DNA of 55,739 nucleotides from Candidatus Moranbacteria bacterium RIFOXYA12_FULL_44_15 (GTDB lineage Bacteria; Patescibacteriota; Minisyncoccia; Moranbacterales; UBA2206), in NCBI GenBank assembly GCA_001784815.1, contig MFSF01000012.1:1-55739 (forward strand), read 5' to 3'. The notes under the pieces are model-generated. The model saw nothing but the letters and a program-made list of their open reading frames with translations, was not told where the DNA came from and searched no databases. The translations under genes and the position numbers were made by a program. Position 1 is the first letter of the stretch; every line of letters begins with the position of its first letter. Of the stretch, positions 3,068 through 8,001 are shown in pieces.

Positions 3068-3096
3068 TTGACTGAGGGAGCGTTTTTTGGTATAGT
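3068..3096 (+). promoter_or_regulatory. Promoter of the GHKL/STAS-like operon (leaderless geometry)
   Basis: TTGACT (3068-3073), 17-nt spacer, TATAGT (3091-3096). Exactly 6 nt separate the -10 box from the ATG at 3103, so transcription would start at or next to the A of ATG. Confidence 0.75.
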
Positions 3097-3102
3097 TTTG
3101 TT

Positions 3103-3672
3103 ATGATTGATTTAGAAAAATTAGCTTATCAATGGATAACTGCGGCGCCTCGAGAGGTTGATGTCAATAGTGAATATTACTGTCAGACGAGAGATGTCTA
3201 TCAGGCAAGGTATGACAAGATGCTTCGTGAGCTTTTTAAAATGGATGATATCAAGGGTGATCCGTATGTCATTTCAGCTGTAGCCGGTGAAATTGGGAAT
3301 AATTCTTTTGATCATAATATTGGCAATTGGCGGGATGTGCCTGGAATATTTTTTGGATATAATTTTTCTGACGATTCTTTTGCTATTGTTATCGCTGATC
3401 GCGGGCAAGGCATCTGGGGAACGTTGAAAAAAGTTAAGCCGGGACTGGCTGATGACAAAGAGGCGCTGAAAGTTGCTTTTACGGAAAGAATTTCCGGCAG
3501 AGCGCCAGAATCGAGAGGTAATGGGCTAAAGTTTGTGCGGGAAAATATCGAAAGCGGAAAAATGCATCTAACTTTTCTTTCTGGGAAAGCCAAGGCCGAG
3601 CTGAATGATGAAATGGTAATTGAGGAGAACGACGAAGAAATCAGGGGATGTTTAGCTATTATAAAGATATAA
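3103..3672 (+). CDS. GHKL-family ATPase (HATPase domain, RsbW-like)
   Basis: The 189-residue protein is a lone Bergerat-fold ATPase. The N-box AGEIGNNSFDHN (residues 61-72) holds the Mg-binding Asn, G1 is IADRGQGIWG (97-106) and G2 is the glycine-rich SRGNGLKFV (137-145). No dimerisation/His-phosphotransfer domain is present, so it resembles anti-sigma kinases of the RsbW type rather than a sensor kinase. The next gene, 18 nt downstream, encodes a STAS-like domain, the usual partner of such ATPases in partner-switching. Catalytic competence as a Ser/Thr kinase is inference. Its mRNA appears leaderless. Confidence 0.75.
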   Translation: MIDLEKLAYQWITAAPREVDVNSEYYCQTRDVYQARYDKMLRELFKMDDIKGDPYVISAVAGEIGNNSFDHNIGNWRDVPGIFFGYNFSDDSFAIVIADRGQGIWGTLKKVKPGLADDKEALKVAFTERISGRAPESRGNGLKFVRENIESGKMHLTFLSGKAKAELNDEMVIEENDEEIRGCLAIIKI

Positions 3673-3690
3673 TTTTACGCGAATATCATC

Positions 3691-3972
3691 ATGGTGATTG
3701 AATTAAAAAAATATGGAGACGTGTTGACTTCTCGGCCGGCCGGCAAGGAGGCGTTTTTGACTATGTCTGCCTATAATCTGAAAGATATCAATGAAGATGA
3801 AAAAATCGAAATAGATTTTAATGGAATAAAAGTGCTGACGCCCTCATGGGCCGATGAAGTAGTAACGAAAATTGCGGTAAGGTTTAAAAACGTTACGCTA
3901 ATCAACACGGAGAATAGCTCCGTCCAAGCGACACTCAAAACTTTGCGGGAATATTCGGATTTGAAGATATAA
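3691..3972 (+). CDS. STAS-like domain protein (DUF4325)
   Basis: A 93-residue protein with the DUF4325/STAS-like core: a beta strand KIEIDFNGIKVLTPSWADEV (about 50-69), where the Ser before W-A-D-E sits where STAS-like proteins have a conserved S/T, then an RFKNVTLINTE strand. It lies between the GHKL ATPase and a membrane protein, with 18- and 35-nt gaps and no promoter between, so probably one operon. Likely role (inference): phosphorylatable or conformational switch partner of the ATPase. Confidence 0.7.
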   Translation: MVIELKKYGDVLTSRPAGKEAFLTMSAYNLKDINEDEKIEIDFNGIKVLTPSWADEVVTKIAVRFKNVTLINTENSSVQATLKTLREYSDLKI

Positions 3973-4007
3973 ATTTATCTGATAAGATAAGAAATATAAA
4001 AAAAGTT

Positions 4008-5996
4008 ATGTACAAAAAAATAACCGAAAGTTACGAACATGCTTTCTGCATCTCCGAAGAAGGCTTATATTCGATAACAGTTAAAGCGAGTTGTGAAAGA
4101 GAAAACGATCTCAAAGCAGAATTGGACGGAAAATTTTTTCGAGAAATACCGCCGGAAAACAAGCCGCAATATTATGATATTCCGCCGACTTGGAACGGGA
4201 ATGAGTTGAAAGGGACCACTAAAACAGTGGTTTTTGTTTTGAAACTTTCGGCTGGAGAACATGCTTTGAAGTTTATCCCCAGAGGGAAAGCGGAAATTAC
4301 TGAGGAGCCGAAAGCCGCATTGTTAGAAAAAAGAAGTCTTGTAACGATTTTGGGGAATGCTCAAAGTCAAAATAAAAACCGCCAGCCGTGGATAACCATA
4401 GCTTTGGTTGATCTGCCCTTAAAATTTGTTGACGCGACGGTTATTTGTCGGAAAAGGTTTTTAGATAGTGATGACGTAAAGTTGATAATTGATGGTAAAG
4501 TTCAAAAAAATCCAGATTCAAATTGGTGGGGCAAAAACTGGCTGTGGCAAGGACGATTAATGAACGGAAAAACAGAAACTAAAAGAGTAGAACCAAATTT
4601 ATCAAAAGGCGTTCACTATATTGAGTTTTGGTCGGATGAAATGCCGACGCTGGAAAAATTGAGCTTGGGATTCGGGGCGGAAAATTGCGGAGACGATGAC
4701 GAAATAACGGATCCAATAAAAGTTTCCGATGAGTTTAATCCTTTATACGTACTTAAAGACAGCGCTTTTGTGAATAACAGCTCAATGAATGAAGAAGATA
4801 TTCAAGCTTTCTTGGATTCTTATCATAAAGTACGAGATAAAAATCATATTTCTAAAATAGAATTTGAAGGAAAGAAGTCGGCTTATTGGATAAAAAAAAC
4901 AGCGGATGAGAATTCAGTAAATCCGCGATTATTACTAACCAAACTTCAAGTAGAGCAGCAACTAATTAATGGAGAAGAATCTATTAACTCTTCAAAAGAT
5001 CAATTAGACTCAGCAATGGGCGTAGGAGTTTTGGATGGGGGAATAGTTTTAGAAGAATTTCAAGGATTTGCTACGCAACTTCTTAATGCCGCAAGGACTT
5101 TTCGATCTCATTTTGACAGAGCAAAAAATGATAATTTCACGCATGAAAATATAGATGGCAAATCATTGACACTGTTAAATGCTTCGACTTATAGCTTATA
5201 TAAATACACCCCGCATATCGAGGGGGCAGAATTAGTCTACAAAGTGTATGCTGGATTTTTTGGAACCAACGATTTGGGCGGGCCAATTCAAGAAGATGAC
5301 AAAACTTTATCCTTCAAAAAAACAGCCGCTTCTATTTCTGCTATTTTGATAATAGTTTTGGGTAGTTTTTTTGGTTTTTATAAATTCAATAATCAAAAAA
5401 ATCCAAGTGTGGCCGGAGCATATTCTTATAAGAACGCGGTTGAACTGGGCGACGGATTGAGTTTGTTTTCCAGTTTATCCATATCTTCCGGTCGAGACGC
5501 GACTTGGGAAGACGGACTTTATTGCGGATTTCGATTTGGTAAGAAGTATGAGTATGACACCGTACTGCAACTGAAAAAAGGAAACTTATTGATAGATTTT
5601 GTCCAATTGACTAATCCGGAATTAGTAATGCCCTATTTATCTCATGAATATACCGATTGGTATAATCCGGTGGATGTTGACAGTGACGGCAAGAAACAGG
5701 AATTTATGGTGGCGGAATATGGCAATTGCAATGGTAATTTTGTTAGCTTTTTAAGATACAATAAAGATGATAAAAGAATAGAAAAGATTCCTATTGTAGT
5801 TGATAATCAACAAGAAACGACAGAGACTTATGTTGATATAGGTTCTGAGTCATTATTAATAAGTAACGGCATACTCGAAGCAAGATATTATTGGAACGCT
5901 CCTCGAGAAGATAAACCAACTGGATTTTATAGGAATTATTATAGTTTCGACAAAGAAAAAAATAAATTGGTTTGGCTTAAGGAGGAAAAAGAGTAA
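4008..5996 (+). CDS. Multidomain membrane protein with lysozyme-like domain
   Basis: A 662-residue protein, family not recognised as a whole. Residues 1-230 contain two beta-rich modules that resemble carbohydrate-binding repeats (both end in GEHALKF / GVHYIEF). Residues about 262-425 resemble a lysozyme/transglycosylase-like fold: EEDIQAFLDSYH, then NPRLLLTKLQVEQQLI with a candidate catalytic Glu, then repeated F-x-x-A/F-R helices. One transmembrane helix lies at about 440-462 (AILIIVLGSFFGFY). The last 200 residues form a beta-rich domain with VDVDSDGK. There is no N-terminal signal peptide, so by simple topology the glycosidase-like part would face the cytoplasm, which is odd. Third gene of the GHKL/STAS-like operon. 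Confidence 0.6.
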   Translation: MYKKITESYEHAFCISEEGLYSITVKASCERENDLKAELDGKFFREIPPENKPQYYDIPPTWNGNELKGTTKTVVFVLKLSAGEHALKFIPRGKAEITEEPKAALLEKRSLVTILGNAQSQNKNRQPWITIALVDLPLKFVDATVICRKRFLDSDDVKLIIDGKVQKNPDSNWWGKNWLWQGRLMNGKTETKRVEPNLSKGVHYIEFWSDEMPTLEKLSLGFGAENCGDDDEITDPIKVSDEFNPLYVLKDSAFVNNSSMNEEDIQAFLDSYHKVRDKNHISKIEFEGKKSAYWIKKTADENSVNPRLLLTKLQVEQQLINGEESINSSKDQLDSAMGVGVLDGGIVLEEFQGFATQLLNAARTFRSHFDRAKNDNFTHENIDGKSLTLLNASTYSLYKYTPHIEGAELVYKVYAGFFGTNDLGGPIQEDDKTLSFKKTAASISAILIIVLGSFFGFYKFNNQKNPSVAGAYSYKNAVELGDGLSLFSSLSISSGRDATWEDGLYCGFRFGKKYEYDTVLQLKKGNLLIDFVQLTNPELVMPYLSHEYTDWYNPVDVDSDGKKQEFMVAEYGNCNGNFVSFLRYNKDDKRIEKIPIVVDNQQETTETYVDIGSESLLISNGILEARYYWNAPREDKPTGFYRNYYSFDKEKNKLVWLKEEKE

Positions 5997-6079: not shown

Positions 6080-6108
6080 TTGACAATTAAGTGGGGAAAG
6101 GATATAAT
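6080..6108 (+). promoter_or_regulatory. Consensus promoter of AbiE locus 1
   Basis: A perfect sigma70-type match: TTGACA (6080-6085), 17 nt, TATAAT (6103-6108). The predicted start at about 6115 gives a leader of about 43 nt before the ATG at 6158. Confidence 0.85.
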
Positions 6109-6157: not shown

Positions 6158-6784
6158 ATGCAATATATTGATTTCCATAACCAGTTTAAAAATGCTCCGC
6201 TGATTGATTTGCGGGATGTTTTGGTTGTTTTCCCCGGTTTTGATAAAAGGCGGCTTAACGAATGGCAAAAAAGAGGCCGTATCCGAAAAATTGCCAGTAA
6301 TTTTTACGTTTTCGCCGGTATAAACATAAATGAGGATATTTTGATGTTTTGGGCGAACAAGGCGTATACGCCATCTTACGTTAGCCTGGAGTCGGCGCTT
6401 TCCTGGCACGGTCTTATCCCGGAAGGGGTTTTCGAAATTACATCCGTGACTTCCGTAAAGAAGCGAGCGATTAAAATAGATTTTCCCGAAATAAAAACTG
6501 CTTTGAACTATCGTAAAATTAAAAGAGAATTATTTTTCGGATATGTTACAGTCAAGATTGAAAGCGGCGTGAACATAATAATTGCCGAAGCGGAAAAGGC
6601 CATCTTGGATTTTTTGTATTTTCGATCGGACATCAAAACTAGAAAGGATCTTTTGGAATTGAGATTGGAGGAAGAAAAAATAAAAAAAATATTATTTGGG
6701 GAAAAGATTGGCCGGTATCTTGAAATTTTTGATTCAAGAACTTTGGAGAAAAAAATTAATATTCTAAAAAAAATATATGCTTAA
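6158..6784 (+). CDS. AbiEi-type antitoxin / transcriptional regulator (locus 1)
   Basis: A 208-residue protein with an N-terminal winged-helix region (VFPGFDKRRLNEWQKRGRI, then KIASNFYVFAG, residues about 23-54) and the AbiEi core YVSLESALSWHGLIPE (about 73-88) with EAEKAILDFLY (about 147-157). It pairs with the nucleotidyltransferase toxin gene, which starts 8 nt before this gene ends. In type IV systems such as AbiE, the antitoxin does not bind the toxin but counters its effect and autoregulates. Promoter and inverted repeat just upstream fit autorepression. Confidence 0.85.
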   Translation: MQYIDFHNQFKNAPLIDLRDVLVVFPGFDKRRLNEWQKRGRIRKIASNFYVFAGININEDILMFWANKAYTPSYVSLESALSWHGLIPEGVFEITSVTSVKKRAIKIDFPEIKTALNYRKIKRELFFGYVTVKIESGVNIIIAEAEKAILDFLYFRSDIKTRKDLLELRLEEEKIKKILFGEKIGRYLEIFDSRTLEKKINILKKIYA

Positions 6785-7550
6785 CCTCGATCAAGTTTTG
6801 AAAGAATATCCAGAAAGTTTACGAGTTTTCAAACGCTTTGCTTATAAGGAATATCTTCAGCACAAGATATTGGATATAATTTTTAAAAGTCAGTGGGGCG
6901 TAAAGCTTTCTTTTTTGGGTGGGACGGCTCTTCGAATTTGCCATGATAATCAACGCTTCTCGGAAGATCTTGATTTTGACAATTTTGGCATGGAACAGGA
7001 AGAGTTTTCTCAATTGGCGGAGGCTGTGAAAAAAAATCTCGAAAAGGAGGGATTTGAGGTGGAAATAAAAAATGTATTCAAGGGAGCATATCGTTGCTCG
7101 ATCAGGTTTTCTAAAATTCTTTTTGAATATGGACTGGCGCCCAATGAAGATGAAAAAATACTTATCCAAATGGACACTATGGCGCATAATTTCCGTTACG
7201 CGCCGGAAAAATTTCTTCTGAATAAGTTTGAGGTTTTTAGGGAGATGAATTTGACGCCGTTGGACATTATTTTATCCCAGAAATTTTATGCTATCTTTAA
7301 TCGAAAAAGAGAATTAGGACGCGACTATTATGATATTGTTTTTCTTCTGGGCAAAACCAACCCCAACTTGGATTATTTGAAACTGAAAATGAACATCTCC
7401 GCAATTTCGGAGTTGAAGGAAAAAGTTTTGCAAAAGTGCGAGACGCTGAATTTTTCGGAACTCTCCAGAGATGTCGAACCATTTATTTTTGACGAAGATG
7501 GGAAAGAAAGAGTGCTGCAATTCAAAAAGATAATCGAAATAAAACTATAG
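6777..7550 (+). CDS. AbiEii-type nucleotidyltransferase toxin (locus 1)
   Basis: The 257-residue DUF1814 nucleotidyltransferase shows motif I LGGTALR (about 48-54), motif II SEDLDFD (62-68) with the metal-binding DxD, and the downstream LSQKFYAIFNR plus GRDYYDIVFLL (about 182-190) typical of AbiEii/MenT toxins. MenT relatives add nucleotides to tRNA 3' ends; that activity here is inference. The ATG overlaps the antitoxin stop by 8 nt, implying coupled translation. Confidence 0.87.
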   Translation: MLNLDQVLKEYPESLRVFKRFAYKEYLQHKILDIIFKSQWGVKLSFLGGTALRICHDNQRFSEDLDFDNFGMEQEEFSQLAEAVKKNLEKEGFEVEIKNVFKGAYRCSIRFSKILFEYGLAPNEDEKILIQMDTMAHNFRYAPEKFLLNKFEVFREMNLTPLDIILSQKFYAIFNRKRELGRDYYDIVFLLGKTNPNLDYLKLKMNISAISELKEKVLQKCETLNFSELSRDVEPFIFDEDGKERVLQFKKIIEIKL

Positions 7551-7746: not shown

Positions 7747-8001
7747 TTATTTCTGTTTTGATGAGAGCAGAAGCACTGTAAGCTCGTCTATCATTGTATC
7801 GAGGGATTTTGCTTTTGCGACAATTTCTTCCCAGAAAAGACAAAGATCGAGGAGAGGATTACGGGAGGATCTCCGATCCCGGATATAGTCAAGAGCTGAT
7901 CTTGAAGCTGATGCAATATCCTCTCTTGAACCCCTAATTTTATGGCGAAAAGTCATCATTTGACCAAGTCCTTGATATTGGGTGTATTCTAATATCCACA
8001 T
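7747..8001 (-). CDS. Small protein of unknown function (84 aa)
   Basis: The 84-residue product is not recognised. It is predicted helical, with an Arg/Ser-rich centre (SREDIASASRSALDYIRDRR) and an amphipathic C-terminal helix ending LTVLLLSSKQK. Evidence that it is a gene: a strong Shine-Dalgarno AGGAGAAAAGGT directly before ATG, rare in this window, and a rho-independent terminator just after the stop. It is transcribed against its neighbours, between AbiE locus 1 and the TrmB cassette. Four-helix-type proteins related to ribosomal-protein S23/IVP-like families (WEEIVAKAKSLDTMIDELT) are a possibility only. Confidence 0.55.
   Translation of the reverse strand: MWILEYTQYQGLGQMMTFRHKIRGSREDIASASRSALDYIRDRRSSRNPLLDLCLFWEEIVAKAKSLDTMIDELTVLLLSSKQK

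Follow-up and report, generated by a model that had tools for sequence, protein, structure and literature searches.

The prevailing view is that Patescibacteria make their living on other microbes, and the means by which they attack, enter or compete for hosts are largely unknown. They have a widespread T4SS of their own, the role of which is an open question (PMC12102498). Bactericidal T4SS effectors of Stenotrophomonas and Xanthomonas are encoded beside immunity genes, and one of them has a wall-hydrolase-like fold (PMC11253643). Polymorphic toxin systems combine a constant N-terminal domain with an exchangeable C-terminal toxin-type domain and an adjacent partner that is exchanged together with it, and a lysozyme-fold tip is among their known tips (PMC3482391). 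In Streptococcus intermedius the immunity protein TipC, which carries an N-terminal transmembrane (TM) anchor and a domain outside the cell, acts against the T7SS-exported toxin TelC in the wall zone; the same paper notes that no toxin-immunity pair with a toxin that hydrolyses peptidoglycan had yet been described from Gram-positive bacteria (PMC6193138).

The third protein (ORF3) of a three-gene locus in the window (the whole 55,739-nucleotide stretch of Candidatus Moranbacteria DNA that was analysed) belongs to an apparently undescribed Patescibacteria family; a literature search, with most subscription papers outside its reach, found no paper describing it. Its architecture and pattern of exchange suggest a family that works like a polymorphic toxin system, as it too joins a constant N-terminal domain to toxin-type domains that are exchanged at the C-terminal side, along with an adjacent partner. 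It differs from those systems in that its N-domain has no Pfam match to them, its carriers are Patescibacteria, its tips are almost all peptidoglycan hydrolases and roughly one member in three has the partner fused behind a TM. The likeness to TelC/TipC lies in a putative toxin for the wall zone, with export by a dedicated system, and in a partner with an N-terminal TM anchor and its domain outside; TelC is a lipid II phosphatase rather than a wall hydrolase, and the T7SS is a feature of TelC. The T6SS effector Tse3 (Pfam T6SS_Tse3_cat) is matched by 5 of the 78 members, 12 members having the domain with its catalytic Glu kept, and this does not imply a T6SS for the family, which has a different N-domain and membrane-anchored partners. 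The Stenotrophomonas/Xanthomonas effectors are comparable in lying beside immunity genes, in the wall-hydrolase-like fold of one of them and in delivery by a T4SS; they carry a C-terminal XVIPCD signal, whereas the constant domain here is N-terminal and no XVIPCD was seen.

We put at about 0.5 the probability that ORF3 comes from a Patescibacteria family whose members are leaderless, polymorphic effectors that degrade cell walls, have an immunity partner and are delivered to other cells. This reading is preferred because of the constant front domain, the exchangeable toxin-type domains, the co-exchanged surface-anchored partner, the patchy distribution and the presence of several paralogs. An earlier, sequence-only reading of the window had taken the third protein for an effector-like output, which appears to be right; its main omission was the phylum-wide family itself, in which hydrolases are swapped and a membrane partner changes along with them.

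The source genome (758 kb in 44 contigs, 90% complete) carries the three genes on the same strand (Table 1), with gaps of 18 nt between ORF1 and ORF2 and 35 nt between ORF2 and ORF3. A leaderless mRNA for ORF1 is plausible because the sigma-70-like promoter ends so close to the first ATG, the count of such consensus sites across the region being at chance level. The genes themselves (an ATPase, a STAS-like protein and a 662-residue protein) and the leaderless promoter were as previously described, on the evidence of the ORFs, the sigma-70-like site, the GHKL boxes and DUF4325. NCBIfam and PADLOC gave no useful match for any of the three proteins; a match of ORF1 to KwaB in this search (E 0.011) was not credible. 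An AbiEi/AbiEii toxin-antitoxin pair lies directly downstream of ORF3 (6158-7550), preceded by a perfect 12/12 sigma-70-type site (TTGACA-17-TATAAT, 6080-6108).

Table 1. Positions in the window of the promoter, the three genes and the domains of the third protein.
Feature	Position	Strand	Basis or remark
Sigma-70-like promoter TTGACT-17-TATAGT, TG preceding the second hexamer	3068..3096	+	About 7 nt upstream of first ATG
ORF1, GHKL-type ATPase/kinase-like protein, 189 aa	3103..3672	+	GHKL boxes, homologs
ORF2, STAS-like DUF4325 (PF14213) partner, 93 aa	3691..3972	+	Pfam, invariant PSWADE serine
ORF3, leaderless 662-aa protein: constant N-domain, lysozyme-like hydrolase, TM and outside domain (fused layout)	4008..5996	+	
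ORF3 constant tandem beta-sandwich (carbohydrate-binding-like) domain, residues 1-224	4008..4679	+	Part common to the family
ORF3 lysozyme-like domain, residues ~262-418	4791..5261	+	Same type in L090 and in secreted L013/L014
ORF3 putative catalytic Glu316	codon 4953-4955	+	
ORF3 single transmembrane helix, residues 439-457	5322..5378	+	
ORF3 outside (extracytoplasmic) beta-rich domain, residues 458-662	5379..5993	+	Homologous only to the L090 counterpart, same hydrolase type

ORF3 has no in-frame ATG, GTG or TTG upstream of position 4008 and no hydrophobic N-terminus or signal peptide. A single TM was predicted, and the earlier description of a lone membrane helix preceded by an enzyme-like domain was upheld by this prediction together with the invariant Glu and the homology of that domain. 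The carbohydrate-binding-like repeats and the lysozyme-like domain that had been proposed within residues 1-440 fared differently in structure prediction. Residues 1-222 were confidently predicted as a tandem beta-sandwich (pLDDT ~96) that matched CBM35, CBM36 and CBM6 through the second beta-sandwich, at a modest Z of ~6, whereas the lysozyme-like part was helical and poorly predicted (pLDDT 30-70), so that the lysozyme fold was not confirmed by the predicted structure. Whole-model Foldseek rows (Cry toxins and others) were rejected as relatives, being scattered beta-sandwich matches. The lysozyme-like domain had no match in Pfam or PDB sequences; it is homologous to L090 (58%) and to the secreted L013 and L014 (29% and 38%, respectively), and the equivalent of Glu316 is invariant in these four sequences, two of which come from proteins with a signal-peptide-like N-terminus.

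The hydrolase should lie on the cytosolic side in fused members, because the N-terminal flank of the TM is the more positive one in 18 versus 5 of 26 fused rows (p = 0.008; the rows include L077, which is not truly fused). The split relatives, in which an anchor protein of its own, oriented N-in/C-out, carries the TM, also favour the cytosolic placement of the enzyme-like domain that had been proposed for the window protein. Inspection by eye just before the TM of the window protein showed no internal start from which the second part of the fusion could be made separately. A G-F(S/I) motif stands just before the TM in 11 of the 26 fused rows (L050, L098, L115 and others); it was rejected as a prepilin-peptidase-like release site, the usual Glu at position 5 being missing and the "leader" exceeding 400 aa.

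A profile of the first 230 residues of ORF3, searched against a collection of 84,980 genomes, found 78 loci, of which about 76 are counted as members after leaving out L124 (Calditrichia), a weak outlier, and L092, a broken copy; L073 is cut by a contig end. Nearly all members are labelled as Patescibacteria (CPR) groups or as unnamed bacteria, and the one labelled Saganbacteria may be misbinned. The family is patchily distributed, with members in 11 of the 383 class genomes and in 8 of the 379 phylum genomes, and several paralogs occur within one genome. All full-length members begin in the tandem carbohydrate-binding-like domain, none with a convincing signal peptide. The N-domain profile found nothing in PDB sequences, IMG/VR or plasmids, the lysozyme-domain profile found nothing in IMG/VR and the whole ORF3 protein found nothing in the phage collection. 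A second family member of the source genome, of the SleB type and in the split layout, lies beside a Fic-like gene (L002 696-2445, G000:C25), and genome G481 holds six N-domain matches, some of them broken.

By hydrolase type the family comprises 41 SleB, 12 Tse3-muramidase-like, 10 SLT and 7 DUF1402-like members, two of the window type (the window and L090) and three without a hydrolase, the SH3b/SLT, Tse3-like and SleB classes having been assigned by BLAST clusters and Pfam and the SleB motif read from the alignment. Pfam itself matched Hydrolase_2 in 42 of the 78, SLT in 9, DUF1402 in 7 and Tse3_cat in 5. The putative catalytic Glu is kept in all 72 members with a hydrolase (41/41, 12/12, 10/10, 7/7 and 2/2 in the order above). 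The TM and outside domain are fused to the hydrolase in about 26 members; otherwise they are encoded by the next gene, which typically overlaps by 4 nt and yields a partner with an N-terminal TM. The outside domain of the SleB class is a predicted beta-propeller with TolB among its structure matches, and on this model it may serve as a binding scaffold.

A tree of the N-domain requires at least 22 changes of hydrolase class and shows 15 of the fused or split state; it is a quick tree with SH-aLRT support only, on which L066 is labelled split though it is fused. Supported branches alone force at least 8 changes for SleB, at least 8 for Tse3-like and at least 6 for SLT. The outside domain follows the hydrolase through these changes. 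All 41 SleB outside domains fall in one cluster whether the layout is fused or split, all 7 DUF1402-like hydrolases have a DUF218 partner, the outside domains of the window and L090 cluster together, and an FG-GAP cluster holds those of the majority of SLT members and of around half of the Tse3-like ones. Among nearest N-domain pairs, the outside domain was shared in 31/31 cases when the hydrolase was the same and in 2/25 when it was different. Judged from these sequences, the outside domain is exchanged together with the hydrolase. Hydrolase and partner lie on one DNA stretch, which makes joint transfer easy, and the SleB enzyme was never seen with another partner despite many exchanges. Two loci resemble orphan immunity genes in having the N-domain, TM and outside domain while part of the hydrolase (L107) or all of it (L121) is missing.

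The tips extend beyond wall hydrolases. Two divergent members (L132 and L135, in G469 and G719) end in DUF6973, on which the literature search found no paper, and four others (L131, L134, L136 and L137, in G666 and G481) end in an uncharacterised tip with the motif DLYSAIHGIKKI...YDIYDFD. A multi-TM ORF follows the DLYSAIHGIKKI-motif tip in L136 and L137 and a weak SLT-like tip in L130. These members with DUF6973 and other tips belong to other classes. As in polymorphic toxins, one N-domain thus carries at least five hydrolase types, DUF6973 and other tips, and the adjacent partner, with a putative immunity role, is exchanged with the toxin-type domain.

Under the effector-immunity reading, the hydrolase would be made in the cytosol, where it would be harmless, and would then cross the envelope by a non-Sec route and enter or attach to the cells of neighbours or hosts, to cut peptidoglycan there. 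At the cell surface, the co-inherited, membrane-anchored outside domain would bind the cognate hydrolase, protecting the producer and its kin. A T4SS would be the obvious candidate route because the source genome has a VirB4/TraG-like (T4SS-type) ATPase elsewhere; by eye, no secretion gene recurred beside the family among the listed upstream and downstream genes. The fused layout is the weak point of this reading because enzyme and outside domain lie on opposite sides of the membrane unless the protein is cleaved, so that release would need a cleavage; the co-exchange, too, could follow from the adjacency of hydrolase and partner alone. More specifically, and more tentatively than for the reading as a whole, the N-domain may be a new Patescibacteria domain for trafficking or target binding, by which interchangeable peptidoglycan hydrolases, and more rarely other tips, are delivered through the reduced Patescibacteria T4SS or another route; together with a surface-anchored cognate immunity domain this would make a phylum-specific effector-immunity system, about a third of the members being one effector-membrane-immunity polypeptide processed later. 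The family gives concrete candidates for secreted cargo in Patescibacteria, would extend the hydrolase effector-immunity logic to this phylum and has many hydrolase-partner pairs that could be taken straight into assays of binding and inhibition.

The same leaderless, membrane-tethered protein with its enzyme inside would also suit self-lysis or abortive infection, in which a latent lysin at the inner face of the membrane reaches the wall only when the membrane is breached (by a phage holin or by stress) and the outside domain senses or restrains it. AbiE, Fic, PIN or MNT-like genes are frequent neighbours of family genes, the window gene included, and one SleB-type member matches phage endolysin families. 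We consider this explanation unlikely, as it accounts neither for the joint change of hydrolase and outside domain nor for DUF6973 and the other tips. A phage endolysin would be marked by occurrence in phages or prophages, and relatives were absent from IMG/VR (N-domain) and from the phage collection (whole protein).

House-keeping wall remodelling, in which the proteins are exported and trim the cell's own wall with the outside domain as activator or anchor, seems just as improbable. Wall turnover commonly involves hydrolases that carry carbohydrate-binding domains, and the partners of the DUF1402 type are DUF218 proteins, a family that includes the envelope protein SanA. A house-keeping function sits poorly with so patchy a distribution, with several paralogs in one genome and with at least 22 hydrolase replacements. 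The handling of cell-wall precursors, which had also been suggested for the window protein, found no support.

The ATPase-STAS pair that precedes ORF3 resembles SpoIIAB/SpoIIAA partner switching in that a GHKL ATPase or kinase stands next to a STAS-type protein whose invariant serine has the corresponding position, as matched by eye only. The GHKL boxes of ORF1 (EIGNNSFDHN, DRGQG and RGNGLK) are invariant or nearly so across 17 homologs, with no HATPase match in Pfam; ORF2 was assigned to DUF4325 with an E of 1.3e-8, and its PSWADE serine was found in all 30 copies read. The pair differs from SpoIIAB/SpoIIAA in that no SpoIIE-family PP2C phosphatase was matched in the 90% complete source genome, no sigma factor lies in the operon (the two of the genome are both on other contigs) and many homologous ATPases carry an extra N-terminal MerR-type HTH (Pfam MerR, HTH_17), from which the window copy is free. 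Because of this added HTH the pair is most likely a gene-control module, in which the GHKL protein may phosphorylate or bind the STAS protein and the HTH would read the result out on DNA. In the window it probably times the expression of the effector gene.

The pair is widespread and stands mostly beside unrelated genes. ORF1 homologs were present in 64 of the 383 class genomes and in 52 of the 379 phylum genomes, with a DUF4325 gene 3' of the ATPase wherever downstream DNA was examined, and in 30 class-level loci the pair was followed by another gene (trmD, mutM, yebC, dnaG, radC and others) whenever this was readable, the window excepted. In about 70 family loci, the surrounding DNA that was examined contains no such pair. 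The pair is consequently an occasional add-on rather than an obligate controller, the sequence-only reading having proposed a switch-controlled effector, and the three-gene order, whose conservation that reading had put up for checking, is repeated in L075 and L120 (MerR-ATPase, STAS and hydrolase gene on the same strand) as a minority arrangement. That pair and third gene are never linked outside the window is ruled out by these loci.

Upstream pairs were found in four lineages and as one remnant, which is above chance for 78 loci fetched from the hydrolase side (expectation ~0.04 loci at distances of up to 500 nt and 0.2 at up to 2.5 kb). In addition to L075 and L120, the pair (L058) or its STAS gene (L057) lies within 2.5 to 3 kb of the hydrolase gene. 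Across genomes, co-occurrence of pair and family was raised in one sample (5/8, p = 0.0016) and weakly in the other (4/11, p = 0.09). In L057 (STAS 7094-7375) and L058 (5142-9956) the hydrolase gene sits between the STAS gene and yebC, and in L021 the pair stands directly by yebC, STAS and yebC being neighbours without a hydrolase gene. Because the hydrolase gene interrupts the STAS-yebC neighbourhood seen in L021, the link may reflect either a shared operon or a favoured insertion place. In L098 the stop-broken tail of a STAS gene (7885-7968) lies directly downstream of the family gene, which suggests insertion into an ATPase-STAS locus. A dedicated switch, with the third protein bound and gated by direct contact with the ATPase and STAS proteins, would agree with the shared order and above-chance linkage and is nonetheless the least probable of the alternatives, as most family loci lack a nearby pair and most pairs lack a family gene, the MerR HTH of homologous ATPases points to gene control, and L057/L058 and L098 look like insertions at a STAS-yebC or STAS locus, so that the linkage may mark an insertion hot spot.

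The STAS gene of L057 looks mosaic, its C-terminal half being nearly identical to that of L058. ORF1 also matches the phage family PHROG 3364 (E 9e-11), to which no function is assigned there, and a 293-aa ORF adjoins a DUF4325 gene in a Francisella prophage (PMC7924643).
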